From Spiribacter salilacus (GTDB taxonomy: Bacteria > Pseudomonadota > Gammaproteobacteria > Nitrococcales > Nitrococcaceae): DNA of 64,000 nt. The notes under the pieces were generated by a model that saw nothing but the letters and a program-made list of their open reading frames with translations, was not told where the DNA came from and made no database searches. The stretch is from positions 134,001 to 198,000 of the forward strand of contig NZ_WJPP01000005.1 in NCBI RefSeq assembly GCF_009649225.1. The letters run 5' to 3'. The position numbers and the translations under genes were made by a program. Of the stretch, positions 33,129 through 58,132 are shown one piece after another (the first letter of the stretch is position 1; every line of letters starts with the position of its first letter).

Positions 33129-34388
33129 TCATGCCGAGGCCGAACCCGAGGCATTATTGCCTTCTACGTATCGAACCCTTCTCAGCACTAACCACCGCAA
33201 ATGCGGCAACCATGGCGCTGCCATCACAAGGGCCGGCACAATAAACTTGGCGCGGTGGCGCAGGCCCGTGCCGAAGTTACCGACCCCAATGGCATAAACG
33301 AAAACCAGTGCGGCGCAGATCAGCAATACCAGGCGCGCGGCGGGATTGTGCCAAATTGCATGGAAATTTCTAAGAATAAGGAAGGATACGGCCAAGTATA
33401 AAAGCCCATCAACTAACCCGAGCAGTTGCGGAAAGCTGCGGATGTCCCACGGGAAAGGGGCGCCAATAAAGTAAGCGATGCGGGCGGGTAGCAGCAGAAG
33501 GTAGTGCGCGGCGTTTTCTGGGGATAACCAGTCTGGGTAGCTCGCGCCACCGTGAGCCTGGCGCTGTGCAAGCGCTATCCAGGTATCGACAGACAAGCCC
33601 TTTGCCAGCGTTCCGATGTAAGGGATGCTCAGGCTGCCGGAGGCAAGCATCAAAACGGCAACAAGCCCAACCATAACTAAACCTAAGCCTATGAACGAGA
33701 CATTCCGCCGTTTAAGTGCCGCGCAAAGTCGCTTTGTCTCGTTTAGCAGTAATAAAAGCAGCAACATGACTGCGCCGACCAACATTGCGCCATGCATAAA
33801 GCCAGCAATCAAAAAACCCACAAAGGCGAGCAACAGTGCGCCAAGGCGGTCAGATTCTTGCCAAATTACTGCCTGATAAAGCGCAAACAATAATGCGAGT
33901 ATGATAAACGCCTCGCGCATTGTTAACGCGCTATACATCACGAGCATGGGAAACACAGCAGTGACCCAAGCCGCTCTTAATGCCGCATCCTGACCCCAAA
34001 TGCGCTGGGCTAAACGATAGGCAAGAAGCACACACAGGGTGCCCGCGATCACACTCAGCGACTGCATAAAGAGCGGGCTACGATCTGCCAAGGCGTAAGC
34101 CAAGCTCACCAGCCACGGGTACCCCCAGCCATTCCCATAGCCTGGAAATTGCGCTAGGGCTGCAACAAAGCCTTGCTGGGCAAGGCTCCATGCATAGTTT
34201 TCAAAGCTCACGGCGTCAGCAACGCCATCCGGCAACGGGCTAACATACCGATGAAATAGCGCAGCGCCGGCCCGCACAGAAAAAGCAACGCCTAACACCC
34301 AACGCAATGCGCGTACTCGCAGCGCCAAAAAAGTGGTCAGCAAAACGCCAAACATCAGGCCAACGGCACCAAAGATTAAGTCAATCAT
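33129..34388 (-). CDS. Multi-helix membrane protein, GT39/EpsG-like
   Basis: 419 residues with about eleven helices, starting at the ATG at 34388 that overlaps the asnB stop (ATGA). VADAVSFENYAWSLAQQGF, GYGNGWGYPWLVSLAYALA and YSALTMREAFIILALLFAL recall GT39-type or EpsG-type glycan polymerases and transferases, in which the REA motif follows the 'P....YS' helix. Donor and role (polymerase versus transferase) cannot be decided. Since no separate Wzy is obvious in the window, this is one candidate for the polymerase. Confidence 0.55.
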   Translation of the reverse strand: MIDLIFGAVGLMFGVLLTTFLALRVRALRWVLGVAFSVRAGAALFHRYVSPLPDGVADAVSFENYAWSLAQQGFVAALAQFPGYGNGWGYPWLVSLAYALADRSPLFMQSLSVIAGTLCVLLAYRLAQRIWGQDAALRAAWVTAVFPMLVMYSALTMREAFIILALLFALYQAVIWQESDRLGALLLAFVGFLIAGFMHGAMLVGAVMLLLLLLLNETKRLCAALKRRNVSFIGLGLVMVGLVAVLMLASGSLSIPYIGTLAKGLSVDTWIALAQRQAHGGASYPDWLSPENAAHYLLLLPARIAYFIGAPFPWDIRSFPQLLGLVDGLLYLAVSFLILRNFHAIWHNPAARLVLLICAALVFVYAIGVGNFGTGLRHRAKFIVPALVMAAPWLPHLRWLVLRRVRYVEGNNASGSASA

Positions 34389-36310
34389 TGAATCCTTTGG
34401 CCCTGCCGGTTTTCTTCCAGCCATGCCTGAAACATCAGTACATTCCAAATTTGTGCATGACCGTGACGTCGCCCAGTTAGATGGGCATTCCAGCACCGCC
34501 GGACTAAAGTAGGATTTAAAAATCCTTCGCGTCGAAGTCGGTCTTCACTGAGCAGCGACTCCGCCCAGTCACGTAACGGGCCACGTAGCCATTCACCTAC
34601 AGGCACCGCAAAACCGGCTTTTGGGCGATCTAACAGCTCTTTGGGCACATAGCGATACAGCATCTGCCGCAGCAGCCATTTGCCTTGCCCATCACGCACC
34701 TTAAATTGATCAGGCACACGCCAGGCAAATTCCACTAAATGATGATCGAGCATGGGCACTCTGGCTTCTAGGCTTACCGCCATGCTGGCGCGATCCACTT
34801 TCGTTAAAATATCGTCTGGCAGATAATTCTGCATGTCGGCAAGAATCATCTGCTCGCGAAGGCTTAGTGCGTCAGAGGACGTACTCGATCCGCCGGCCAT
34901 AGAACCCAAATCATCAGCCCCGCGCACCAGCGCATCCGGATTCGGCCAGGCGGCGCGCAAACGACGATAGAAATCCATGCCGTCGTTGGCCAGCAAAGCA
35001 TCGCGAAGCTTTTCCAGCTTTTCACCCAGCTGGGGGATACGAGCTGAGCTCGTGAGGAAATTTGCCCTCAGCGCCAGTGCCAGTGAGGCAGCGGCCGCTT
35101 GCCGCATGGGGCGGGGCAATCGATGGATCTGGCGCCAAAGTTTTGGCGCCATGACATGTCGGTTGTATCCGGCAAAGAGCTCATCGCCACCGTCACCGGA
35201 TAGGCTAACCGTTACTTGAGATCGAGCTAGCTGGCTGACTAGATAGGTGGGGATTTGCGAGGAATCGGCAAAGGGTTCGTCGTAGATGGTTGGCAGGTTT
35301 GGAATAACGCCCATGGCCGCCTCTGGGGTAACCGTTAGCTCGGTGTGGTCTGTACCCAGGTGCTTTGCCACGGCGGCCGCGTGCTCGGCTTCATTAAAAT
35401 CCGCTTCCGTAAAACCGATCGAAAACGTCTTTACCGGCCGTGAACTTTGCACCTGCATGTGCGCCACGATTGCAGAGGAGTCGTAACCACCGGAGAGGAA
35501 CGCCCCCAAAGGCACATCTGCCTCCATTCGCAGCCCCACGGCTTCATGCAGACGGTGGTCTAATTGATCAATAAGGGTGTTGGCATCAAGGAAGCTATCA
35601 GAGCCCTTGGCGGCGATGCCACCCAAATCCCAGTAGCAAGTCGGTTTGCCAATACGTTGGCCGCCTTCTGACACCACCACATAATGGGCGGGCAGTAATT
35701 TATGGATGCCCTGATAAATCGAACGTGGCGCCGGCACATTGCCATCCCGCATAAACGCGGCCAATGCATTACGATCAATCTGCCCCTGCCAACTGGGATG
35801 CGCGGTTAACGCCTTAAGCTCAGAGCCAAAAAGAAAAGTGCCGCCAGCATGCCCATAATAGAGCGGCTTCTCACCCATGCGATCACGAGCCAAGATTAAA
35901 CAACGTTCTTGCCGATCCCAAAGGGCAAAGGCAAACATGCCGTTTAGGCGCTGCAGTGCCTCGTCTATGCCCCAATGCCTCAGGCCAGCTAAGAGCGTTT
36001 CAGTATCTGAATGACCGCGCCACTCAAACCCACCACCTTCCGCTTCAAGCTCAGCCCGCAGTGTACGATGATTATAAATTTCGCCATTAAACACCAGCAC
36101 AAAACGGCCACAAGGCGACTGCATGGGCTGGTGCCCAGCTGGTGAGAGGTCAAGGACGGCCAGGCGTTGATGGGCCAAGGCAAGGTTAAGTTCACTATCA
36201 TTCCAATGCCCATTTGCATCGGGGCCACGACTTTGAAGGCGGCCAGCCATGCGCGCAATCGAAGCTTTATTATGAGTCGACCCACCCCATGCGCCGCATA
36301 TGCCACACAT
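34385..36310 (-). CDS. asnB: Glutamine-hydrolysing asparagine synthase family amidotransferase
   Basis: 641 residues starting MCGICG, so the processed N-terminal Cys2 is the glutaminase nucleophile. NGEIYNHRTLR and GHSDTETLLAGL are glutaminase motifs; LSGGYDSSAIVAHM is the PP-loop of the synthase domain (SGGxDSS), and LSGDGGDELFAGYNRH and the ARVPMLDHHLVE segment complete it. In polysaccharide loci such enzymes amidate uronic acids, which would suit the dehydrogenase and epimerase found here (inference). Start chosen by the conserved MCGIC end and the overlap with the GT4 stop. Confidence 0.88.
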   Translation of the reverse strand: MCGICGAWGGSTHNKASIARMAGRLQSRGPDANGHWNDSELNLALAHQRLAVLDLSPAGHQPMQSPCGRFVLVFNGEIYNHRTLRAELEAEGGGFEWRGHSDTETLLAGLRHWGIDEALQRLNGMFAFALWDRQERCLILARDRMGEKPLYYGHAGGTFLFGSELKALTAHPSWQGQIDRNALAAFMRDGNVPAPRSIYQGIHKLLPAHYVVVSEGGQRIGKPTCYWDLGGIAAKGSDSFLDANTLIDQLDHRLHEAVGLRMEADVPLGAFLSGGYDSSAIVAHMQVQSSRPVKTFSIGFTEADFNEAEHAAAVAKHLGTDHTELTVTPEAAMGVIPNLPTIYDEPFADSSQIPTYLVSQLARSQVTVSLSGDGGDELFAGYNRHVMAPKLWRQIHRLPRPMRQAAAASLALALRANFLTSSARIPQLGEKLEKLRDALLANDGMDFYRRLRAAWPNPDALVRGADDLGSMAGGSSTSSDALSLREQMILADMQNYLPDDILTKVDRASMAVSLEARVPMLDHHLVEFAWRVPDQFKVRDGQGKWLLRQMLYRYVPKELLDRPKAGFAVPVGEWLRGPLRDWAESLLSEDRLRREGFLNPTLVRRCWNAHLTGRRHGHAQIWNVLMFQAWLEENRQGQRIQ

Positions 36311-37455
36311 CAGTACTCGCCCCGATAAACCGCCAAGTAACGCTCGGCTGTGGCGGTTATCGAGTACCGTTCTTGGATGCGTTTGCGTGCCGCTCGGCCT
36401 AATTCCTCGTTTTGCTGCGCAGGCTGTGCCAGCGCGGACTTTATCGCCTCCGCTAGCGCGACTGGATCCTTTGGCGGGACTAATGACCCGCGGTTTCCAA
36501 TTACCTCTCGAACGCCCCCACAGTCTGTGGCCACCACAGGGCGCTGACAGGCCATCGCCTCTGCCACTACAAGACCAAATCCTTCCCATGCGGATGAAAG
36601 CACAAACACATCACAGGCTGACATTAATGCCGGCACGTCATGCCGGACTCCAAGCCAATTAATTCGTTCTGAAATCTCTAGGTCGGCGGCAAGAGCCTCG
36701 AGCGTCGCTCGAAGCGGTCCGTCTCCAGCCACCGCCAAGCGCCAGCTTCGATCGTCTTTTAAAGCGCTCATTGCCTTGAGTAAGGAGGGGTAATCTTTTG
36801 GCGCCCATAATCGGCCTACCGCCAGAATGAGTGACGTCTCGGCTGAAATCTTTAGTTCCTCACGAATTTGCTCACGCAACGCTGTATCAAATCGAAATTC
36901 ATCCGTGGATACACCGTTATAAACTGGAATCATGCGGCCCGGCTTAACTGCGCCCTGCGCTTCAAAAGCTTGAACAGCTTCATTAGACACATTGGTGGAA
37001 ATATCCGCCAAGCGATCCGTCAGCCGATAGGCCCAAATGCGAGCACGGCCTTCTTCATTAGAATTATGTGCGCTGCTGATTAGACAACGCATGGGTACTA
37101 CTAACCTAAGCATACGGGTCAAGATATTGGCATGAACGAGATGCGAGTTAACAATATCGGGTTGGAAGGACTTAACCATCTCGCGCAACCGCCTCAAGCC
37201 CACCAACAGCCCAATAGGATTACGCTTCATCGCTAGATTTTCTAGGGATATGTTCCTGTTTTTGGGTCGAACGATTATCGGCTCAGTCAAACAAACTAGC
37301 TTTACCTGATGGCCAGCAGAAGCGTATTGATCTGCTAATGCGCATACCAATTTTTCAGCCCCACCGACTTCTAGCCCCGTGATGCAGAGCAAAATTTTGA
37401 GTTTAGCGTCAGCCACAAGGCAAGGTTTCAATAAAGCTTTCGCTTTGAGCGACAA
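36310..37455 (-). CDS. GT4 glycosyltransferase
   Basis: 381 residues. LCITGLEVGGAEKLVCALAD at the N-terminus, VNSHLVHANILTRML, the IPVYNGVSTDEF hinge, ILAVGRLWAPKDYPSLLKAM, and SSAWEGFGLVVAEAMACQRPVV (EX7E) place it firmly in GT4. Cytoplasmic. Overlaps asnB (TGATG) and the preceding GT2 gene by 28 bases, so it is part of the 38276 to 33129 operon. Confidence 0.87.
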   Translation of the reverse strand: MSLKAKALLKPCLVADAKLKILLCITGLEVGGAEKLVCALADQYASAGHQVKLVCLTEPIIVRPKNRNISLENLAMKRNPIGLLVGLRRLREMVKSFQPDIVNSHLVHANILTRMLRLVVPMRCLISSAHNSNEEGRARIWAYRLTDRLADISTNVSNEAVQAFEAQGAVKPGRMIPVYNGVSTDEFRFDTALREQIREELKISAETSLILAVGRLWAPKDYPSLLKAMSALKDDRSWRLAVAGDGPLRATLEALAADLEISERINWLGVRHDVPALMSACDVFVLSSAWEGFGLVVAEAMACQRPVVATDCGGVREVIGNRGSLVPPKDPVALAEAIKSALAQPAQQNEELGRAARKRIQERYSITATAERYLAVYRGEY

Positions 37456-47372: not shown

Positions 47373-47444
47373 CAGTCCCTCTGTTGAGCCACTTTCTCTG
47401 CTGCGAAACTCATTACCGGCAACACAACCCCGCCGCCGGCGATA

Positions 47445-47655
47445 CCGTCAAGAATTGCTCATCGATCGCCCTGCGCTGAAAGCGCGCGTTTGGGTGCCGC
47501 CACCGTAGAGGGTGATGGGGTCGTTGCAAAGCCCCGGCCCGGACGGTGAAGCTGGACACCACGCGCCCGTCGCTGGGGTGCATGCGCCGGCCGTAGGTGT
47601 TAAAGATGCGCGCCACCTTGATGTTAAGCCCGTGCTGGCGGTTTCCACAGTTAAT
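47445..47655 (-). pseudogene. UDP-glucuronate decarboxylase, middle fragment
   Basis: Reads [20 protein letters not shown] and [16 protein letters not shown], then after a +1 shift [19 protein letters not shown]. This is the stretch that should follow the N-terminal fragment at 49070-49521 in UDP-xylose synthase. Two or more frameshifts and no C-terminus: dead. The segment 47656-49069 separates it from that fragment. Confidence 0.8.
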
Positions 47656-47698
47656 GTGGCATTGCCCGGCGGTTTCATCTGAAGGAGGACAATTGCTG

Positions 47699-47932
47699 CT
47701 ACCCCCGCGGCGGATATGGATCTCCGCCGTGACTATCGCTCTCTCTGACCTTGCCATCCTTGTTATGGATCCGGAGTTCAGTCTTTTGGTTTCGGCTCAC
47801 CCTACGCCCGGCATCAATTGCCTCGCGTTTAACGGCGTGGCGGCTGCTCGCGCGCTTACTCCCGCCTCTTTTAACGCTCCAACCACCGTCAGGATTCGGG
47901 ACGATGTGGTGAGTATCTGGCTTTTTTGGCAT
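47699..47932 (-). CDS. DUF2188-domain protein
   Basis: 77 residues from an ATG with GGAGGTGG upstream. [40 protein letters not shown] and [19 protein letters not shown] cover the whole DUF2188 domain (small basic proteins, function unknown). Lies 28 bases after the HNH gene on the same strand, so it is probably co-transcribed. Confidence 0.82.
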
Positions 47933-47959: not shown

Positions 47960-48289
47960 CTAAACGACACAGCCGAGCTTAACGCCTAACCTTGCAGTGT
48001 TGTTTGCAAAATGAAGATCATCACCCTTGGCAAGATTATTTGCCCAGTGCAACGGCTGGAGATTGAAAAGGTCGTCACTACCACCCAAAGCGACGGGCTT
48101 GATGTGGTCGATTTCCCAACCCCCGTCAACGCGCTTGCCGTGCTTATCGCGGCATATATGTGCGCCGCAACGATCTTGCCGGACGACGGCAGGGTCTCTG
48201 CCTGAGACTACTGTCGCTTTGCGCCAAACTGCCTGTCTAATATCGTCGGGGAAGGGGCGCCCTTGTCGATCTGTATTTCTTTCACGCAT
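47960..48289 (-). CDS. HNH endonuclease
   Basis: 109 residues; start at 48289 chosen because AAGGAGG lies 7 bases upstream. CGAHICRDKHGKRVDGGWEI then DHIKPVALGGSDDLFNLQPL and HWANNLAKGDDL match the H-N-H / beta-beta-alpha metal finger (DH..., N at FNLQPL, final N in NNLAKGD). Small free-standing HNH enzymes of this kind occur in phages and mobile DNA. It heads a short module with DUF2188 and has its own promoter and palindrome at 48364-48392. Homing or DNA-processing role inferred. Confidence 0.85.
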   Translation of the reverse strand: MRERNTDRQGRPFPDDIRQAVWRKATVVSGRDPAVVRQDRCGAHICRDKHGKRVDGGWEIDHIKPVALGGSDDLFNLQPLHWANNLAKGDDLHFANNTARLGVKLGCVV

Positions 48290-48363
48290 GGTCAATCCTC
48301 CTTGATTATCAAATCTCACTAGAGCACTAGCCGTGCCGCTGACACCACTATTACCATGGTCTG

Positions 48364-48392
48364 CTCTAGCCGGACAATCAGAGATTGTCAAG
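48364..48392 (-). promoter_or_regulatory. Promoter with operator-like palindrome for the HNH gene
   Basis: On the minus strand a TTGACA (48387-48392) is followed after 17 bases by TAGAGC (48364-48369). Between and overlapping them lies a perfect inverted repeat, GACAATC-AGA-GATTGTC at 48374-48390. It would allow steric repression. The -10 match is weak (3 of 6). Confidence 0.5.
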
Positions 48393-49069: not shown

Positions 49070-49521
49070 TCACGCGCCCACGCCAATCGGATTCACATTG
49101 CCCCAGTAGCTTTCGGGTTGCGGATGCACTTCGGGGTCGCCATACACCTCGCTGGTGGAGGCTTGAAAGATCTTCGCCTTGGTGCGCTTGGCCAGCCCCA
49201 GCCCAGCATGTTAATGGCACCGTGCACGCTGGTCTTAGTAGTTTGCACGGGATCGAACTGGTAGTGGATTGGCGACGCTGGGCAGGCCAGGTTGTAGATC
49301 TCGTCCACCTCAACATAGAGCGGGAAGGTCACATCGTGGCGCATCAGCTCGAAATGCGGGTGATCGAGCAGATGGGCGATGTTGTCCTTGGTGCCGGTGA
49401 AGAAGTTGTCCAGACAGATGACGTCGTGGCCTTCGTTCAGCAAGCGCTCGCACAGATGCGAGCCGAGGAAGCCGGCACCGCCGGTGATAAGGATGCGGGA
49501 GCGGTGGGAGTAGTTTTCCAT
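49070..49521 (-). pseudogene. UDP-glucuronate decarboxylase, N-terminal half, frameshifted
   Basis: [40 protein letters not shown] and EIYNLACPASPIHYQFDPVQ are the intact N-terminus of UDP-xylose synthase (UDP-GlcA to UDP-xylose). A five-base duplication (CTGGG, about 49193-49208) then shifts the frame; correcting it restores [20 protein letters not shown] and [13 protein letters not shown] before homology stops near 49080. Catalytic Tyr/Lys and everything after are missing here. Fragments of the remainder lie at 47445 and 50119. Confidence 0.88.
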
Positions 49522-50151: not shown

Positions 50152-50886
50152 TTAGGTATTCCATCGCCCCACAACATTGCAAAAACGGTCGATGTCTGGC
50201 ACGTTACCCAGATCAAATTTCGCCATGACCGAACACGGTATGACTAGAGCTCCTCGCCCGATCAAAACATTGATCGTTGGGCCAAGATAGTATTCTTCAT
50301 TTCTATGCGGAGGACCAGAAAGTGTGGTCTCGATTGCTGCAAATAGTAAATCAGCATTACGGAAGCCATAGACTCCCGCGCTTGCATAGCAACTAACGAG
50401 TTTTTTCTCTACAACATTGATGACGCGACAATCGGTAATTTGAGCATAACTGGATTTACCGCTGGTATTCACGTACAGGGGAAGAAAAACATCCCAGCCA
50501 ACGCGACCAGCTGGTAATTCAAACTGACAGTACTGATCAACATTTACACAAATCACTTCGCCTGTTGCCGGTACAACTCCTCTCGCCGCAAAGACACTCG
50601 CGGCAGGCCCTGGAGGTATTTTTGGGACTGTTATTAGCTCAAAATCAGCAGGGATTCCAAGCCGGCCAATCCAGTCACGACAGAGGCCAGAAAGACCAAA
50701 ATCTCGTTCGAGGTGATCAGTGGTAATTGCTAAGATCAAGTCACCATCATTAACGTATCCGGATAACCCAGTAAGGCACCATGCTAGGATTGGTCGACCA
50801 GCCACAGAAATCGCGGGTTTGCAAGGGCCAAGCGCACTGACCCGAGCTCCTTGACCAGCCATTGGAAGAATCCACGTACGAGACAT
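50152..50886 (-). CDS. Sugar-phosphate nucleotidyltransferase-like
   Basis: 244 residues from the ATG at 50886. WILPMAGQGARVSALGPCKP is the NTP-binding loop with the catalytic Lys region (GxG..R......KP), VICVNVDQYCQFELP the metal Asp, and EEYYLGPTINVLI the substrate-side motif. Typical of small capsular nucleotidyltransferases that activate sugar phosphates. The next genes upstream encode a uronate-isomerase-like fusion and a PfkA-like kinase, so it may activate an unusual sugar made by that set. No strong ribosome site. Confidence 0.78.
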   Translation of the reverse strand: MSRTWILPMAGQGARVSALGPCKPAISVAGRPILAWCLTGLSGYVNDGDLILAITTDHLERDFGLSGLCRDWIGRLGIPADFELITVPKIPPGPAASVFAARGVVPATGEVICVNVDQYCQFELPAGRVGWDVFLPLYVNTSGKSSYAQITDCRVINVVEKKLVSCYASAGVYGFRNADLLFAAIETTLSGPPHRNEEYYLGPTINVLIGRGALVIPCSVMAKFDLGNVPDIDRFCNVVGRWNT

Positions 50887-51011
50887 GTAATTTATCTTAG
50901 CGCAATGATGATTAAGGCATCCAAAAAACGAGCCAAGGGCGCGGAGATGAAAAGCATTCAGTGACTTCACCAACATACCTCACTAAAGCCGGTTTTAGCG
51001 CCGCCATCGCT

Positions 51012-53192
51012 TTAGCTCCCTGAAGCTGAGATTTCAAGGCCGCATGCAGTGCTGCAGCCGCTATGAAGCAAGCTGGCTGGTTTATCATGCAACAAAGTGG
51101 CAATGTCTCTACGAATTGTGTCCTCAGTGACATTCCAGCCAGCGAGAATTAACTCCTGGTAACGCTCGACCAATGCGTCATGTAGTTGATCTTTGAAATG
51201 ACCCCATTTAAAAATCAGTTGTTCCAAAACCCGCGCGTCAGAGTGTTGTGGCACAAACCCAAAGCCTAATAAATCGAACCTCATCCGAAGTGTTTGCTGC
51301 ACTAAGCTTGGCTGATTATTGAACCACCAAAACCCGAACAGCTTTAAGTTGGGAAACTTTCGAGCAAGAACAGTTAGCGCATGATGGGCATCATGATGCA
51401 AATGCGTAATTAAAATCCTCAGCTCCGGAAAGCTTCGTGCAAGATACTCAACTTCCGAAAGCCCAGCAACTCCCAGACCGTCACCTCCGAGTTCGTAATC
51501 GGGGTTCACTTGGCGCTTGACGCCAACCATCAAGGCCAACGGCATACGATTTTCCTGAAGCCAAGGTAACAGCGCATCCAAGAATAGCTTGTCACTTCGA
51601 AGACTCTTCAGTTGAACGCCATCGAGAGAAAGTGCCACATACTCGGGTCGACTAGTCTCGGCCCAACGGTCAAGTAATGCTTGGAATTCTAATATCTCTA
51701 TTGATTCGGCGGATCGTATTAGGCCCAGCCGAGCAAGAGAAACTGCCGCAGCTCGGGGCTTAAGTAACAAGGTATCGAGACGCAGCGCGGCACCATAGCG
51801 GTCCCGGTTCCAATCAGATCTCTCGAACAACGACCACTCTTCCTCATCGCAAGGGTCGTTTGTCATAATAACGCGCTCAATATTCAATCTATTCAGTAAT
51901 TCTTCATCATTCAGGCGGGAAGAGTCGATAGCGCGCTTGATTTCAGAGTAAGGAAATAAGCCGGGTTCAATGCCCAGGAATTTTAATACTGTCACAACAC
52001 CTTTTGTAGCTTCGGAAAAGGGCGTATTTGCACGGAAAAGAGTATCCCAGACTACCTCTGCTTGCTTGCGTTTGGATAGCGCGAAAAATCTCTTAGGTGC
52101 TATGCCAGATACTGTAAGGCACTCAACCGTTAAGTAATGATAAGTCAGAAGGTCGTCCGCTCCGCTAAGAGAAAACTTTTGGTGCTGGGGTGGGAAGAGA
52201 TGCGTATGAATATCCAGTATCGGTGCATTATCAAGTATCACTCGGGTGACCTGCCCAACGTTTGCTGCAGAAACTGAGGGCGGGGCCTGTCCTGTATCGG
52301 TCGCAGTAATCATAGTCTTACCCCAGTGCGACTCCATGTAGTCAATAATGCGTCGATCAATAACAGTGTCCAACGACGGGACTTCTGGCAATTGTATTTG
52401 AGCTGGGCCAGCGGGATGGACAGCCGTTGTGTCGAACGCATCTGTCTTGAAGCAATGCACTCCGGTGCCATCGAACCCAATGTTGGCAATAAGTGGACGC
52501 GATGGAAATAAACACATCGTATTGGTTAGATAGTGTGCAAGTACCCAATTAATGCTCCAGATGTCATTGGAATCGTCTAATGCAGCGTAACTGTCGATGT
52601 ACGCGCGGACATCTTCTGGTAGCTTTGGGTACGTGCCCGTTTCATGTGTTAACTTAAGCAAGTGGCGTAAATCAGTATCGTAATCAATCCAACGATCGCG
52701 CCAGGTGCCCCAACCCCATGGCACGAATCTTGATATCAGTGAGCCCGAAATAGTTGGTGAAATGGTAGAAACGTGTGGAAACTGATATCCACATACACTA
52801 CGCACCGTTCTATCACGCCAATACTTAGTTAAGCCCGCCTGCATATAATCGAAAAATCCCGGTTGTGGTATGCAGTCGTCTTCCAGCAATATCACGGCTT
52901 CGTGATCCTGAAGGGTATCAGAGACGGCGCTTACAATTGACCGGCGTAGACCCAAGTTGACCCTACGCCGCACTAAGCGGACATCTGCCCACTCGATGGC
53001 TGTGGCTTCTGCAGCGATCTCCTCTTGCTTTTCTCTGATTGTTCGGTCATCAGCGCCGTCCATGAACACCAAAAAGCGCCTTACCTTCAGACGCCGAAGG
53101 GCATCGAACACCTGCTTCACATGATCTGGGCGGCTGTAGGCAAGCACCGCTATTCCAATACTTAATGGTCTGTCAGTCTGACTTGATTGCAT
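51012..53192 (-). CDS. Fusion: HlpA-like glycosyltransferase + uronate-isomerase/amidohydrolase-like domain
   Basis: 726 residues in one uninterrupted frame. Residues 1-290: IGIAVLAYSRPDHVKQVFDA, FLVFMDGADDRT, NLGLRRSIVSAV, VILLEDDCIPQPGFFDYM (EDDC site), VPWGWGTWRDRW and IANIGFDGTGVH, a GT-A domain paralogous to 44580-45551. Residues ~320-715: ILDIHTHLFPP (metal HxH), LLTYHYLTVECLTVSG, TKGVVTVLKFLGI, RILITHLHHDAHHALTVLAR, and WNVTEDTIRRDIATLLHD, a TIM-barrel amidohydrolase of the uronate-isomerase (UxaC-like) group. The pairing of transferase and sugar isomerase/hydrolase in one chain is unusual. Neighbours: PfkA-like gene 18 bases upstream, nucleotidyltransferase downstream. Confidence 0.75.
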   Translation of the reverse strand: MQSSQTDRPLSIGIAVLAYSRPDHVKQVFDALRRLKVRRFLVFMDGADDRTIREKQEEIAAEATAIEWADVRLVRRRVNLGLRRSIVSAVSDTLQDHEAVILLEDDCIPQPGFFDYMQAGLTKYWRDRTVRSVCGYQFPHVSTISPTISGSLISRFVPWGWGTWRDRWIDYDTDLRHLLKLTHETGTYPKLPEDVRAYIDSYAALDDSNDIWSINWVLAHYLTNTMCLFPSRPLIANIGFDGTGVHCFKTDAFDTTAVHPAGPAQIQLPEVPSLDTVIDRRIIDYMESHWGKTMITATDTGQAPPSVSAANVGQVTRVILDNAPILDIHTHLFPPQHQKFSLSGADDLLTYHYLTVECLTVSGIAPKRFFALSKRKQAEVVWDTLFRANTPFSEATKGVVTVLKFLGIEPGLFPYSEIKRAIDSSRLNDEELLNRLNIERVIMTNDPCDEEEWSLFERSDWNRDRYGAALRLDTLLLKPRAAAVSLARLGLIRSAESIEILEFQALLDRWAETSRPEYVALSLDGVQLKSLRSDKLFLDALLPWLQENRMPLALMVGVKRQVNPDYELGGDGLGVAGLSEVEYLARSFPELRILITHLHHDAHHALTVLARKFPNLKLFGFWWFNNQPSLVQQTLRMRFDLLGFGFVPQHSDARVLEQLIFKWGHFKDQLHDALVERYQELILAGWNVTEDTIRRDIATLLHDKPASLLHSGCSTACGLEISASGS

Positions 53193-53210
53193 TGATAAGG
53201 TGCCGATCTA

Positions 53211-54437
53211 TTAGGTACGAAACTTCAAGGTATCAAGTGGTGGGAAGAACCGCTCTGTCCCATATCCGTAACGTGACTCAAAACGGCTCATCTTTAGGAT
53301 GCGGTTAAGGTAACTTGTATACATTTCGGTAACGTCGAAATTCTGCGTGCTAACAAATTTACCGTGCATCGATCTCGAAAAATCGGTGAATTCACTGAAG
53401 GAGATTGTTCCTATAGGATCTTCACTGGATACACACACATCAGGACCACGAATCGTCGCCAAGAAATCGCTTGCCCCTTCGCTCAATTGCTGCACAATAT
53501 GCCGTCCTTGCCGTTCGGCTACGTCTAAATCGAAATCCAACGTGTCATCGATAGCCTGACGTTGCAAAATTGTCGGAATGTAGGAGCGCGAGGAAATACC
53601 TGCTTGCAAAAGATGGTCAACAAGTAATTGTGCGGCAGTAGTACGGCTGGATCCGTACATCGTTTGACCAGTAGCATCCTTGACCGAACCTACATCACCA
53701 ACGGGGTAACCCTCAGATATGACGATAACCGCACGACCCGCGTTGGCTAACTTATCATCGACCGCACCGATTAGCACGTCCAGTGGCTGAGGGTCTTCAG
53801 GCAACATTAACAATAGCGGAGCTTTCCTACTAGGATCAGCTATTCGGGCTGCGCCGGCAAGGAAACCTGTCTCCCGCCCAAAAGTCTGTGCGACTAGAAC
53901 CCTGTCGTGTGATGCTGCACCCGCGTTTTCAATATCAAGGAGTTTGGTGACTTTTGCCCAATGGTTAACACAGCTAGGAAATCCTGGCGTAAAAAAAACA
54001 TCTCGGCACTCTGGATCACCGAGATCGTTATCTACAGTCTTTGGCGCAGCAGCTACACGTACACTTTTACCAATCGCTGATGCGATTGCTCGAGTCTGTT
54101 TGATCGTCCCGTTGCCTCCAATGTTAATGAAAGCACCAATATCATACTGCTCGAATATATTCGCCAGTGCCTCTAACTCATAGCCGCTAAGAATCGACAT
54201 ACGCGCCGTACCTATAGACGCTGATCCTGGCGTTCGGCGAAGCATTTCAAGCTCTTCGTTGTTCAAGGAACTGAGATCCATTAAAGATCCATTTAATAGA
54301 CCGGTTATACCCGGAATACCGGCAAAAATTCGACCATAGGATTTCATTTCCACTGCCTGACGAATAATTCCAACAAGCGTTGCATTAATTACTGTCGTTG
54401 TTCCTCCCGACATAGTTACTAAAAGATTTTTTTTCAT
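53211..54437 (-). CDS. PfkA-superfamily sugar kinase of unknown substrate
   Basis: 408 residues. FINIGGNGTIKQTRAIA corresponds to the GGDGS metal loop, with Asp replaced by Asn. VAAAPKTVDNDLGDPE is the catalytic TIDND region with the PKT Lys typical of diphosphate-using enzymes. VLVAQTFGRETGFLAGAARI and VIVISEGYP match MGR and ISEG motifs, while IPTILQRQAIDD is a degenerate LGHIQRGG. Overall a divergent phosphofructokinase-type enzyme; fructose-6-phosphate is not assured. In a glycan cassette next to a nucleotidyltransferase it may phosphorylate an unusual sugar (inference). Confidence 0.78.
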   Translation of the reverse strand: MKKNLLVTMSGGTTTVINATLVGIIRQAVEMKSYGRIFAGIPGITGLLNGSLMDLSSLNNEELEMLRRTPGSASIGTARMSILSGYELEALANIFEQYDIGAFINIGGNGTIKQTRAIASAIGKSVRVAAAPKTVDNDLGDPECRDVFFTPGFPSCVNHWAKVTKLLDIENAGAASHDRVLVAQTFGRETGFLAGAARIADPSRKAPLLLMLPEDPQPLDVLIGAVDDKLANAGRAVIVISEGYPVGDVGSVKDATGQTMYGSSRTTAAQLLVDHLLQAGISSRSYIPTILQRQAIDDTLDFDLDVAERQGRHIVQQLSEGASDFLATIRGPDVCVSSEDPIGTISFSEFTDFSRSMHGKFVSTQNFDVTEMYTSYLNRILKMSRFESRYGYGTERFFPPLDTLKFRT

Positions 54438-54468
54438 TTTAGGAGGCCTCTACTTGTTGCAAACATAT

Positions 54469-55470
54469 TTAGCGTGAGAGACTCCATTTTTTATAAATTT
54501 TCCGCATGTATACCTTAACCCTATCTGGGAGACGTGCTGCAATTCTGTATAGAAGGCTCATATTGCGATCCGGCTTATTTCGACTTTTTATAAGCCGCTG
54601 ATGTAAGTGCTCTGATTCCTCTTTGTCGACAAAAGCCGAAGGATCATTAAATAGGGAGTCAACACCAAAATTCTTTAAGGCCAAATTGATCCAAGCAGGG
54701 TCATGGTCTTTTACGGGATAATAAATAATGTGGTAATCGATAAATCGCATCAAGCGAGGCTGAATTCTTATCTGCCTCGCACGGCGGCGAGCGATCATAG
54801 CAAGTGTCTGCTCTGGATTACGCCCCCCCTGTTTATAAAAAAAATAAATATCTTCAATTGCATTATGAGCCCAAAGTTTACCGAAATCTTCCCAAGTTCC
54901 AAAAGTCAAATGATCGCTTAACCATGCACTTGGTATAAATGGATTTTTAGATACAGTTAACGTGCCCGAGCAAAAGTCGAGCATTGAGACAAATGAATTT
55001 GTGATAATAAGGCAATCTGTGCGTATTCTTAACGCGTGAGTGAATGTTTTTCTATTTGGAAGTTGCTCTATATATCTATATAGTGCACTCATCGAATAAA
55101 ACATTCCCATCGTGGCATTAATTGATGAGTTCGAGCCCGTTTCTATACCAACCGTAGAACTGTAGAACTCCTCGGGCAAGGGAACGGCAGTTATGCAAGC
55201 AGAAACCTTAGGGTGTGCAAGCACAAGATCGATATCGGCAAGATTATCGCGATCACGACGCTTGTTGCCTAGGTCCTCTTTCCAGATCAGAGCAAAGATC
55301 TCAAAGTTCAAACCATCGAGAACCGATTCTAGTCGTTTTATGACTAGAGGAGCGTAGCGGATGGGCCCGGCCATCAAGACGGCAACCTTGTACTCCAGGT
55401 ATTTGCTTGAAACAGATAAGGGGGTCGTACCTTCAACTGGGGTCTGGGTCGAATTTTTGTCAAATTTCAT
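54469..55470 (-). CDS. WavE-like LPS synthesis protein
   Basis: 333 residues, AT-rich. YKVAVLMAGPIRYAPLVIKR, TGSNSSINATMGMFYSMSAL, ALRIRTDCLIITNSF and SAWLSDHLTFGTWEDFGKLW follow the layout of WavE-type LPS core proteins (the R-x-D 'RTD' acidic site and the W..SDHL..G motif). Presumed glycosyltransferase. First gene of the 55470 to 50152 cassette below the flippase; the ATG lies 13 bases from the flippase stop. Confidence 0.68.
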   Translation of the reverse strand: MKFDKNSTQTPVEGTTPLSVSSKYLEYKVAVLMAGPIRYAPLVIKRLESVLDGLNFEIFALIWKEDLGNKRRDRDNLADIDLVLAHPKVSACITAVPLPEEFYSSTVGIETGSNSSINATMGMFYSMSALYRYIEQLPNRKTFTHALRIRTDCLIITNSFVSMLDFCSGTLTVSKNPFIPSAWLSDHLTFGTWEDFGKLWAHNAIEDIYFFYKQGGRNPEQTLAMIARRRARQIRIQPRLMRFIDYHIIYYPVKDHDPAWINLALKNFGVDSLFNDPSAFVDKEESEHLHQRLIKSRNKPDRNMSLLYRIAARLPDRVKVYMRKIYKKWSLSR

Positions 55471-55483
55471 ATACGTACATTTT

Positions 55484-57283
55484 TCACTTTACTACGTAGC
55501 CTGTTACCGCCATCGCCCGAAACCGCTCATCTGCCTGCGTCAGTTCGTCAAAGGTCCCCTGCGCTTTCAGCTCACCTTTCTCCAGCAGGAAGATGGTGTC
55601 GCAGGCTTTTACAGTGCTTAGCCGATGAGCTATCAGGATGATGGTGATTTCATGCCCCAGGTTGTGCACCGCTTCCATCACCGCCTGTTCGGTCAGGTTG
55701 TCGAGCGCGCTGGTGGCCTCATCCAGAATCAAAACCTGTGGGTTGTGATACAGCGCTCTGGCAATGCCAATGCGCTGGCGCTGCCCGCCCGAGAGGCGCA
55801 CGCCACGCTCACCTACGGTGGTTTGATATTGCTGCGGCAATTCATTGGCCACGAACTCATGCAAGTTAGCAATTTTGGCGGCGCGCTCCACGGCGGCTTG
55901 GTCGATGTCTTTTTCTTGTAGGCCGAAGGCGATGTTGGCGGCCACCGTGTCGTCGGCCAAGTAAATCTGCTGCGGCACATAGCCTATAGCGCGCTGCCAG
56001 GCACGGCGGTTATGTTCAATGATGGCTTGGCCGTCTACTTCTAGTGTGCCTTCCTGCGCTTCAAGCAGGCCGAGGATCAAATCCACCGTGGTGGTTTTGC
56101 CGCTGCCGGTGGCGCCCACCAAGCCCACCGTGCTTTTGGCGGGGATGGTGAGGCTTAAATTCTTTAACGCCGGCTGCGGGGCGTTGGGGTAGGTGTATTG
56201 CACATCGTTCAGCGTGATCGCCTGGGTGAGCGGCATCGCCGCCTTCGCTTGATGCGGGTTGGCCGGCTGCAGGCTCATTAGGTCTTTATGCAGGGCATCA
56301 ATGGCCGGGCCCGCAAAGCGCAGCTGGGTGACCGCGCCATAGATCTGTTGCAGGGCGGGCATCAGGCGATAGCCGGCAAAGGCATAGAGCGCGATGATGG
56401 GCAGGGCGCTGGCAAAGCTGCCGCTTTGCGCCATCAGATACAACACCACCAACAGCATGCCGCCAAAGGCAATGGCCTCTAGCGCAAAGCGCGGCAGTTG
56501 GCTAATCACCTGTGCAGAGGCCTGATGCCGAGCATAAGTGCGTGCAGGGTCAGAAAACCGATCGATATAGGCCTGCTCCAGCCCCGCCACTTTGATTTCT
56601 TTCGGTGCACCAAAGGCCTCGCTGACGGCGGTAAAGCGCCACCGATTGGCCTTCACTCGTTCCTGGCCAATACGCGTTAAAAACCCGCGGGTGATCTTAA
56701 AGACGAGCGCATAGGCCGCGGTCAGCGTCAGCCCCACCACCAAGGCAAGCTTGGGGTCAATAAAAACTAATAACGTGAGCAACGATAAGGCAACGGCACC
56801 GTGCGCGATGATGTGCATCATGGGTGTGATGCCACCGCCAATGACCTCATTGACTTCGGAGAGAATAGTTTTACCCAAATCCGCACTATGCCGGCTCAAA
56901 AACCAGCTATAGGGCTGGTGCAGGTAGCCTTCTACTAGGCGCTTGCCGATGCTGTATTCGCGCATCAGGGTAAAGCGCAGTTGCGCGTAGGTGGTAAGCG
57001 CCTTGAACGCCAGCGAGACCACCAGCAGCACAAACACCATAATGCCGAGCAAAAAGAGAAACTGATCGGTGGTGGTCACACCAATCGCGCCGGCCGCAGT
57101 AAAGGCAGTGTTAAGGATGGCGTTGGTCTGCACCAGCTCTGGGTTTGCCAGCACGCCCATAAACGGCATAATCGAGGCCACCCCAATCATATCCAGCAGC
57201 GCCATGGTCAAAATCATGCATAGCAGCAGCACCCCGCGCTTGCGCTCATGCGGGGTGAGGAGGGCTAGGAGTTTTTTAAGCAT
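55484..57283 (-). CDS. pglK: PglK-like ABC flippase for lipid-linked glycan
   Basis: 599 residues. Six N-terminal helices, then an ATPase: VGLVGATGSGKTTTVDLILG (Walker A), IGYVPQQIYLADDTVAANIA (Q-loop), GERGVRLSGGQRQRIGIARA (signature), VLILDEATSALDNL (Walker B) and IILIAHRLSTV (H-loop). PHERKRGVLLLCMILTMALL and the DMIGVASIMPFMGVL start are typical of PglK/WlaB, which flips undecaprenyl-diphosphate oligosaccharides using ATP. No Wzx-type flippase is visible in the window, so it is the natural candidate for translocation. Follows HepT by 10 bases. Confidence 0.85.
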   Translation of the reverse strand: MLKKLLALLTPHERKRGVLLLCMILTMALLDMIGVASIMPFMGVLANPELVQTNAILNTAFTAAGAIGVTTTDQFLFLLGIMVFVLLVVSLAFKALTTYAQLRFTLMREYSIGKRLVEGYLHQPYSWFLSRHSADLGKTILSEVNEVIGGGITPMMHIIAHGAVALSLLTLLVFIDPKLALVVGLTLTAAYALVFKITRGFLTRIGQERVKANRWRFTAVSEAFGAPKEIKVAGLEQAYIDRFSDPARTYARHQASAQVISQLPRFALEAIAFGGMLLVVLYLMAQSGSFASALPIIALYAFAGYRLMPALQQIYGAVTQLRFAGPAIDALHKDLMSLQPANPHQAKAAMPLTQAITLNDVQYTYPNAPQPALKNLSLTIPAKSTVGLVGATGSGKTTTVDLILGLLEAQEGTLEVDGQAIIEHNRRAWQRAIGYVPQQIYLADDTVAANIAFGLQEKDIDQAAVERAAKIANLHEFVANELPQQYQTTVGERGVRLSGGQRQRIGIARALYHNPQVLILDEATSALDNLTEQAVMEAVHNLGHEITIILIAHRLSTVKACDTIFLLEKGELKAQGTFDELTQADERFRAMAVTGYVVK

Positions 57284-57293
57284 GGAGTAGGGA

Positions 57294-57785
57294 TTAACTT
57301 TCGGAATCTAACCAGCCGCGTGCACGCAAGTCGTCGAGGAGACTTTCCACCACGGCGCTCAATGTAGGCACAAATTCATGGCCTGCTTGAAGCGCGTCTG
57401 CCAGTGTTGCCGCGTCCTCGATGTATTCATGCACCATCTGGTTGCGCAGCTTGCGCATCGTTAGCCATGCATCAGCTGACGGAATCAATTGCAGCTTCTC
57501 CGCCCGATCAAGATTATCAATCACAGCCCCGGTGTGTTCGCCCACTGCTTCGAGGTAAACAGGCAGAAGCTTGTCGCCCAAGGTGTCCTGAAGGCGCCCA
57601 AATCGACTCACAAAGGCCTCGACACGCTCAGACTCATCGATACTATCCGCTAATGCGGCGGCACGCTCTGGCGTGAAAGGCCTGCTAAAGACGCGTTGGT
57701 CCGTTGTGGTCAGGTGCTCTTGCTCACGCTGGACGACGCGACTAAGAAATTGCAGGCGATCGAGCTGCTCAGAATCCCTATTCAA
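57294..57785 (-). CDS. hepT: HEPN toxin of HepT/MntA type VII system
   Basis: 163 residues, all helical. RKLRNQMVHEYIED carries R114-X4-H119-X-Y121, the RX4HXY active site of HepT RNases that is AMPylated at Tyr by the partner. The preceding DNLDRAEKLQLIPSADAW helix agrees with the family. ATG overlaps the MntA stop. It lies within the operon between the EPS regulator and the flippase, so readthrough probably co-expresses it with the glycan genes. Confidence 0.86.
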   Translation of the reverse strand: MNRDSEQLDRLQFLSRVVQREQEHLTTTDQRVFSRPFTPERAAALADSIDESERVEAFVSRFGRLQDTLGDKLLPVYLEAVGEHTGAVIDNLDRAEKLQLIPSADAWLTMRKLRNQMVHEYIEDAATLADALQAGHEFVPTLSAVVESLLDDLRARGWLDSES

Positions 57786-58081
57786 AGCAGCTGCCCCTGC
57801 TGCTCGGCAACCCGATGGACGGCTTGCCGAGTCAAATTAGGAGCAGACAGTAGGACATCAACGCGACGGCCGCCTAGGCTGCGGCTGATCAATGCCGATA
57901 GCCTTGCAGAAAGCAGTGCCGGGCGCTCAACTGGATTATCTAGCTCTATCAGCAGATCTACATCGCCACCACGCCTCGAGTCATCTAGCCGTGAGCCAAA
58001 CAGCCGCACACGCGCAGTGGAGCCGCACTCGCGGCGCACCACTTCACGGATTGCTTGCATGTGTTTCGGACTTATACGCAT
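57782..58081 (-). CDS. mntA: MntA-type nucleotidyltransferase antitoxin
   Basis: 99 residues from MRISPKHM at 58081. VRLFGSRLDDSRRGGDVDLLIE gives the GSX10DXD motif (G29-S30, D40, D42) of minimal nucleotidyltransferases; VRREC before it and the SRSLGGRRVDVLL strand complete the fold. MntA AMPylates the HepT tyrosine and so silences it. Overlap with hepT by 4 bases. Confidence 0.85.
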   Translation of the reverse strand: MRISPKHMQAIREVVRRECGSTARVRLFGSRLDDSRRGGDVDLLIELDNPVERPALLSARLSALISRSLGGRRVDVLLSAPNLTRQAVHRVAEQQGQLL

Positions 58082-58132
58082 GGGTTTGTTGATAGGCCCA
58101 ACCAATCGCACTCCTGAGGCAGCTGCAGCCCC

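Follow-up and report, generated by a model that had tools for sequence, protein, structure and literature searches.

A rare gene cassette of Spiribacter salilacus and tailed phages that may make and use an activated acidic sugar

Introduction

Kinases of the PfkA type are textbook enzymes of glycolysis; they phosphorylate the C1 hydroxymethyl group of a ketose and hold its distal phosphate. We know of no PfkA-type kinase that makes a nucleotide sugar. Here we describe a gene cassette of Spiribacter salilacus in which a kinase of this superfamily is followed by a glycosyltransferase-isomerase fusion and a nucleotidyltransferase. The cassette lies in a stretch of 64,000 nucleotides (NCBI RefSeq assembly GCF_009649225.1, contig NZ_WJPP01000005.1, positions 134,001 to 198,000), here called the window. 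Judged from its sequence, we regard as evenly balanced the proposal that this is a mobile glycan cassette whose products make and use a single nucleoside diphosphate (NDP)-activated acidic sugar, a uronate or ketouronate, through a four-step route set out below.

The closest described kinase family by score is the pyrophosphate (PPi)-dependent phosphofructokinase (PFK) subfamily PRK14072 (PDB 3hno and 3k2q). The cassette kinases retain its PKTVDND motif but score below its 273-bit cut-off, carry GGNGTIKQ instead of GGGDSxD, and are encoded in a glycan cassette. The BH0493 uronate isomerase of Halalkalibacterium halodurans (PDB 2q08, 3hk5, and others) aligns with the whole isomerase domain at 40% identity and shares its conserved columns; the cassette domain differs in being fused to a glycosyltransferase and in lying beside the kinase and nucleotidyltransferase genes, and 79 other isomerase loci show neither. 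In myo-inositol breakdown, IolB and IolC also combine a sugar-acid isomerase with a keto-acid kinase, and one of the related phage loci has an IolB-like protein; however, IolC belongs to the PfkB rather than the PfkA family, and that pathway has neither nucleotidyltransferase nor glycosyltransferase. Uronate salvage resembles the cassette in that a galacturonate or glucuronate kinase and a UDP-sugar pyrophosphorylase yield an NDP-uronate, but the kinases there belong to a different fold family and work with neither an isomerase nor a glycosyltransferase fusion. The first-pass annotation of the window, made by a model from the letters alone, knew of no described pathway with this gene set; our literature searches likewise found none, nor any in which a PfkA-type kinase makes a nucleotide sugar.

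Conservation of the cassette

The kinase belongs to a rare subfamily that recurs with a nucleotidyltransferase in distant genomes. In all four loci found to carry the subfamily, the nucleotidyltransferase adjoins the kinase or sits one or two genes away. By comparison, a cassette-type nucleotidyltransferase or glycosyltransferase was found at none of 30 housekeeping-PFK loci in the 2.8 to 4.2 kb examined. The four co-directional genes that the first-pass annotation had listed in the window are real open reading frames (ORFs), all on the minus strand and with the ends and order given there. Transcription runs from an ABC (ATP-binding cassette) exporter through an orphan ORF, the kinase and the fusion to the nucleotidyltransferase, with gaps of 31 bp upstream of the kinase and 18 bp upstream of the fusion. 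The features are as follows.

55484..57283, minus strand: PglK/MsbA-like ABC exporter (NF050066, 337.8 bits, below the cut-off of 1000)
54469..55470, minus strand: orphan ORF of 333 amino acids, the "WavE-like" gene of the first-pass annotation (family not established; no homologue found)
53211..54437, minus strand: PfkA-superfamily kinase of a rare subfamily, with GGNGTIKQ and PKTVDND (PF00365, 110.8 bits; PRK14072, 219.6 bits, below 273; own clade)
51012..53192, minus strand: whole glycosyltransferase-isomerase fusion, a two-part ORF
52265..53192, minus strand: glycosyltransferase part of the fusion, residues 1 to about 310 (relatives found; in a clade with the L025 and L107 glycosyltransferases)
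51012..52265, minus strand: BH0493-type uronate isomerase domain, aligned residues 317-701 (2pnk/2q08, E = 2.6e-88; 40% identity; 67 of 72 conserved columns)
50152..50886, minus strand: nucleotidyltransferase, listed as an ORF from 50976 (weak library matches; full-length relatives; in a clade with the other cassette nucleotidyltransferases)

An isomerase-anchored scan of genome contigs gave 351 pattern matches and 276 relatives, the best 80 of which were examined; several of these 80 loci end at a contig edge. The rest of the cassette is present at one of the 80, locus L025, from an alphaproteobacterial metagenome-assembled genome of Candidatus Phaeomarinobacter. There, kinase, fusion and nucleotidyltransferase stand in the same order as in the window, with frames overlapping by 4 bp and with identities to the window proteins of 49%, 44%, and 40%, respectively. 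The examined flanks of the other 79 loci contain neither a cassette kinase nor a cassette nucleotidyltransferase.

The remaining two loci are viral. A kinase-anchored scan of viral contigs (45 pattern matches) gave two relatives, L107 and L108, and further viral scans with the kinase, the nucleotidyltransferase and a 313-amino-acid ORF returned the same two contigs; no relative turned up when viral contigs were scanned with the isomerase pair, with the fusion pair, or with the first nucleotidyltransferase pair. The gene order in L107 is 313-amino-acid ORF, kinase, glycosyltransferase, KduI/IolB protein, nucleotidyltransferase; in L108 it is 314-amino-acid ORF, kinase, nucleotidyltransferase. 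Among the ten proteins scanned in all across the two contigs, those of L107 include matches to terminase, tail-sheath and baseplate proteins, and those of L108 a match to the RIIA lysis-inhibition protein and one to UDP-glucose dehydrogenase. From these matches we take both contigs to be from tailed phages, with less evidence for L108.

Islands directly before the kinase unit of L107 and L108 (about 0.6-7 kb) contain NeuB, CTP_transf_3, GT29 and DegT matches, a xylose-isomerase-like TIM barrel, and short-chain dehydrogenase/reductase (SDR) genes. These phages may make a sialic-acid-like sugar.

In trees, the cassette proteins form clades of their own: all four kinases (support 100/99), all four nucleotidyltransferases (100/100), and the three glycosyltransferases (97/98). 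The comparison sets are small (33 other PFK rows, 10 other nucleotidyltransferases, and 11 other glycosyltransferases), and all three trees carried long-branch warnings. The kinase tree and the nucleotidyltransferase tree each place L107 and L108 as a pair, with full support. Co-inheritance of the cassette genes in bacteria and phages is the strongest result of the analysis, and the clustering of homologues that the first-pass annotation had proposed to look for does occur.

The cassette is rare within the genomes, plasmids and viral contigs searched. At E ≤ 1e-70, the kinase was found in 1 of 385 genomes of the class and 1 of 4 genomes of the order to which the L025 genome belongs, in both cases the L025 genome itself, and in 1 of 398 genomes of the phylum of the window, the window's own; the three samples overlap in part. 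Plasmid searches with the fusion matched 15 records, confined to the glycosyltransferase part among the matches listed, and those with the kinase matched 15 records at no more than 31.9% identity; annotated phages gave 10 records for the kinase, at no more than 28.4% identity, and no match for the phage nucleotidyltransferase. None of these records contained the cassette, and a megablast search of Escherichia coli genomes, at the DNA level only, gave no match. The cassette has a G+C content of 0.47 against 0.533 for the window, and its kinase is absent from all 13 congeners, which have only the housekeeping type; acquisition from outside fits these two observations. The best reading is that the cassette is mobile and moves horizontally.

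The kinase

Membership of the kinase in the PfkA superfamily, as first annotated, is clear from its PF00365 score of 110.8 bits against a cut-off of 30.9 and from the catalytic motif PKTVDND, which is present in all four cassette kinases. Among the NCBIfam models, the PPi-PFK subfamily PRK14072 comes closest to them, with scores of 219.6 (window), 192.6 (L025), 211.7 (L107), and 201.4 bits (L108), all below the cut-off. All four have GGNGTIKQ where 32 rows used for comparison, 30 of them from loci and 2 from the PDB, have GGGDSxD, the donor-site motif of PPi enzymes. We take the glycine at this site as a sign of ATP rather than PPi as the donor. PKTVDND and QR are retained. There are many further invariant differences from the comparison rows, with donor and acceptor motifs among the sites affected. 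The QR motif and the R/K before the FGR motif, presumably the basic residues of the distal anion site, are both present. The predicted structure of the window kinase is poor (mean pLDDT, the predicted local distance difference test score, 52.3).

The genome encodes a separate housekeeping PFK at C14:25891-26766. A PFK match at E ≤ 1e-10 was found in 49 of the 59 genomes searched, comprising that of the window and its relatives, and the cassette kinase in the window's genome only.

The fusion protein

The first-pass annotation had described the third of its four genes as a fusion of a glycosyltransferase with a uronate-isomerase-like domain, and both halves bear this out. The Pfam match of the glycosyltransferase part is weak (0.065), and relatives of this part occur in 9 of 273 other genomes of the class, none of the nine matching in the isomerase part; another relative lies within the same locus. 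This part is of the usual NDP-sugar-dependent kind and has an EDD motif, which we take to be functional in such glycosyltransferases.

Residues 317-701 align with the BH0493 structures over a full-length domain, and one matching PDB sequence is also named uronate isomerase. Across 79 stand-alone relatives, 72 columns are at least 97% conserved; the window retains 67 of these and L025 retains 70. HxH, YHY and DxR, which we take to be the functional residues of BH0493-type uronate isomerases, are all present in the isomerase domains of both. Neighbours were scanned for two stand-alone relatives, one of which lies beside a mannitol-dehydrogenase-family gene and the other close to a gene for mannonate dehydratase. 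PMC6978723 describes a uronate breakdown route with genes of these kinds.

In L107, the slot between the glycosyltransferase and the nucleotidyltransferase is filled by a protein of the KduI/IolB superfamily, which is unrelated to the BH0493 type (PF04962, 157.4 bits against a cut-off of 23.9, E = 5.7e-46). The authors of PMC3578941 put forward isomerization to tagaturonate and fructuronate as a hypothesis and gave other explanations beside it.

Stand-alone BH0493-type isomerases occur in many marine alphaproteobacterial genomes (L026-L061). L036, the only one of these that was scanned, lies close to genes for an ABC importer, for oxidoreductases of the Gfo/Idh/MocA type, and for a mannonate dehydratase and is likely, judging by these neighbours, a locus of uronate uptake and breakdown.

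The nucleotidyltransferase

Annotation of the last gene as a sugar nucleotidyltransferase stands. Its library matches are weak and all fall below the curated cut-offs (IspD, 0.0056; NTP_transf_3, 0.01; rmlA_long, 8.5e-5). Relatives nevertheless align over residues 36-265, among them proteins that do reach the PF00483 cut-off, and the signature MAGxGxR...KP is common to all four cassette nucleotidyltransferases. We take GxGxR...KP to be the nucleotide-binding signature of RmlA/MobA-like nucleotidyltransferases. By its sequence, the protein is a divergent but real member of the family. From the N-termini of its relatives, a start at 50886 appears more likely than one at 50976.

A plasmid search with the nucleotidyltransferase found relatives in 28 records and no further cassette; no such kinase is annotated in the three regions inspected. 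Two of the plasmid sets, at L022 9989-18440 and L024 7675-11853, lie near true WavE genes, genes for haloacid dehalogenase (HAD) phosphatases, and another nucleotidyltransferase-like gene, which is annotated as a glycosyltransferase. Their nucleotidyltransferases fall on a branch separate from those of the cassette, and they are possibly another undescribed sugar-activation set.

Proposed pathway and alternatives

We infer the following enzyme activities, together with the substrate, the phosphorylated carbon, the nucleotide, and the use of the product by the glycosyltransferase. The isomerase domain would interconvert a hexuronate and its 2-keto form, e.g., D-glucuronate and D-fructuronate or D-galacturonate and D-tagaturonate. 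The PfkA-like kinase would phosphorylate the sugar acid, probably with ATP. Like fructose-6-phosphate, a ketouronate carries a hydroxymethyl ketone, and its distal carboxylate would take the place of that sugar's phosphate. The nucleotidyltransferase would then convert the sugar phosphate to an NDP-sugar, and the fused or a neighbouring glycosyltransferase would add the sugar to a surface polysaccharide.

That the cassette proteins act in one pathway, as the first-pass annotation had suggested, is likely and strongly supported by the pairing of kinase and nucleotidyltransferase in four of four loci against none of 30 housekeeping loci, although the supposed WavE member drops out of the set. 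That the pathway handles a uronate seems rather likely. The best evidence for a uronate or keto acid as substrate is that two unrelated families of uronate-type isomerase fill one slot.

Several observations weigh against this scheme. The known loci number only four. In the L108 record, both isomerase families were looked for and neither turned up, so an isomerase is not a universal component. The KduI/IolB protein of L107 scores 140.7 bits with the IolB equivalog model TIGR04378, below the cut-off of 205. In the isomerase tree, which carried long-branch warnings, the two fused domains are not sisters, and that of L025 groups with stand-alone marine enzymes (99/97). L025 takes different positions in the kinase and nucleotidyltransferase trees, with full support in neither. 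No source reaction for the uronate was identified. A chemical weak point is that a phosphate on the primary carbon of a ketouronate would yield a donor fit for phosphodiester transfer rather than for ordinary glycosyl transfer.

The donor problem would be avoided if the isomerase yielded an aldohexuronate, the kinase phosphorylated its anomeric hydroxyl, and the nucleotidyltransferase made a conventional NDP-uronate for the glycosyltransferase, much as uronate kinase and pyrophosphorylase do in salvage. The kinase-nucleotidyltransferase pairing and the ordinary NDP-sugar type of the glycosyltransferase, with its EDD motif, agree with such a route, but to our knowledge no PfkA-family enzyme phosphorylates an anomeric hydroxyl, and we consider it unlikely. 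The retained basic residues presumed to form the distal anion site (QR; R/K before FGR) would instead suit a phosphorylated acceptor: the kinase could act on fructose-6-phosphate or sedoheptulose-7-phosphate, the nucleotidyltransferase could charge the new phosphate, and the isomerase could serve another step or sugar. L108, with kinase and nucleotidyltransferase and no isomerase detected, would fit, and according to PMC7029132 the acceptors of the PfkA family extend to sedoheptulose-7-phosphate. Yet three of the four loci encode, between the kinase and the nucleotidyltransferase, a uronate-type isomerase from one of two unrelated families, which makes this ketose-phosphate route unlikely.

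The kinase might also be an ordinary or decaying phosphofructokinase, present in a glycan locus by chance. Its membership in the PfkA family agrees with this, but the genome has its housekeeping enzyme, the cassette kinases form a separate clade and differ invariantly in their donor and acceptor motifs, and they recur with the nucleotidyltransferase in distant genomes and at no housekeeping locus. A chance placement is therefore very improbable, and identity with an ordinary phosphofructokinase, the outcome that the first-pass annotation had named as fatal to its proposal, is rejected by sequence on these same grounds.

Returning to the NDP-activated acidic sugar, a more specific version is possible, and we put it forward only tentatively. 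Bacteria and tailed phages would share a new nucleotide-sugar pathway whose PfkA-fold kinase, altered in its specificity for both donor and acceptor, places the phosphate of a ketouronic acid on the carbon adjoining the ketone; the NDP-ketouronate would enter a glycan through an undescribed linkage, with BH0493-type and KduI/IolB-type isomerases filling the same slot. If this is true, the PfkA family would gain a new branch, with a compact route leading to an activated acidic sugar that is itself new. Related sets occur in tailed phages as well as in an unrelated bacterium, which suggests an undescribed route to an activated acidic sugar, and their place within the glycan islands of the phages suggests a role in phage-host surface interplay.

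The first ORF and the surrounding genes

The orphan ORF upstream of the kinase had been annotated as WavE-like, which was not confirmed. It gave no PF07507 match in Pfam at a limit of E = 10, its profile comparison with two true WavE proteins was not significant (E = 0.14), and no homologue was found among 273 other genomes of the class or in the plasmid collection. Its likeness to the WavE lipopolysaccharide synthesis family consists of loose motifs in an alignment at 22-23% identity, and membership is not supported. The ORF has a G+C content of 0.425 and a poor predicted structure, with a mean pLDDT of 35.0. A family common to it and the ORFs that precede the phage kinases was also considered, and no relation was seen; the two phage ORFs, of 313 and 314 amino acids, are themselves relatives.

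The exporter directly upstream of the orphan ORF is outside the conserved unit, and no match to it was seen in L025; it is PglK/MsbA-like and may have a role in glycan export. The surroundings are those of a polysaccharide locus. Five of ten other scanned window proteins match glycosyltransferase families, and the rest include one each of UDP-glucose dehydrogenase, asparagine synthase, and a fusion of a glycosyltransferase-4 with an O-antigen-ligase-like part. Asparagine-synthase-type genes are found at window positions 34385-36589 and, as read from the translation, directly after the L025 cassette (L025 5859-6449).

Next to the cassette lies a broken SDR gene with the look of a UDP-glucuronate decarboxylase. 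Its N-terminal piece (49093-49521) matches Epimerase over residues 10-108 only; reading of translations places a C-terminal-looking piece in the ORF at 47413-47757 and an HNH-looking ORF (47960-48391) between the two. On the same kind of reading, two adjoining small ORFs at 57294-58111 have the look of an HEPN/MNT toxin-antitoxin pair.

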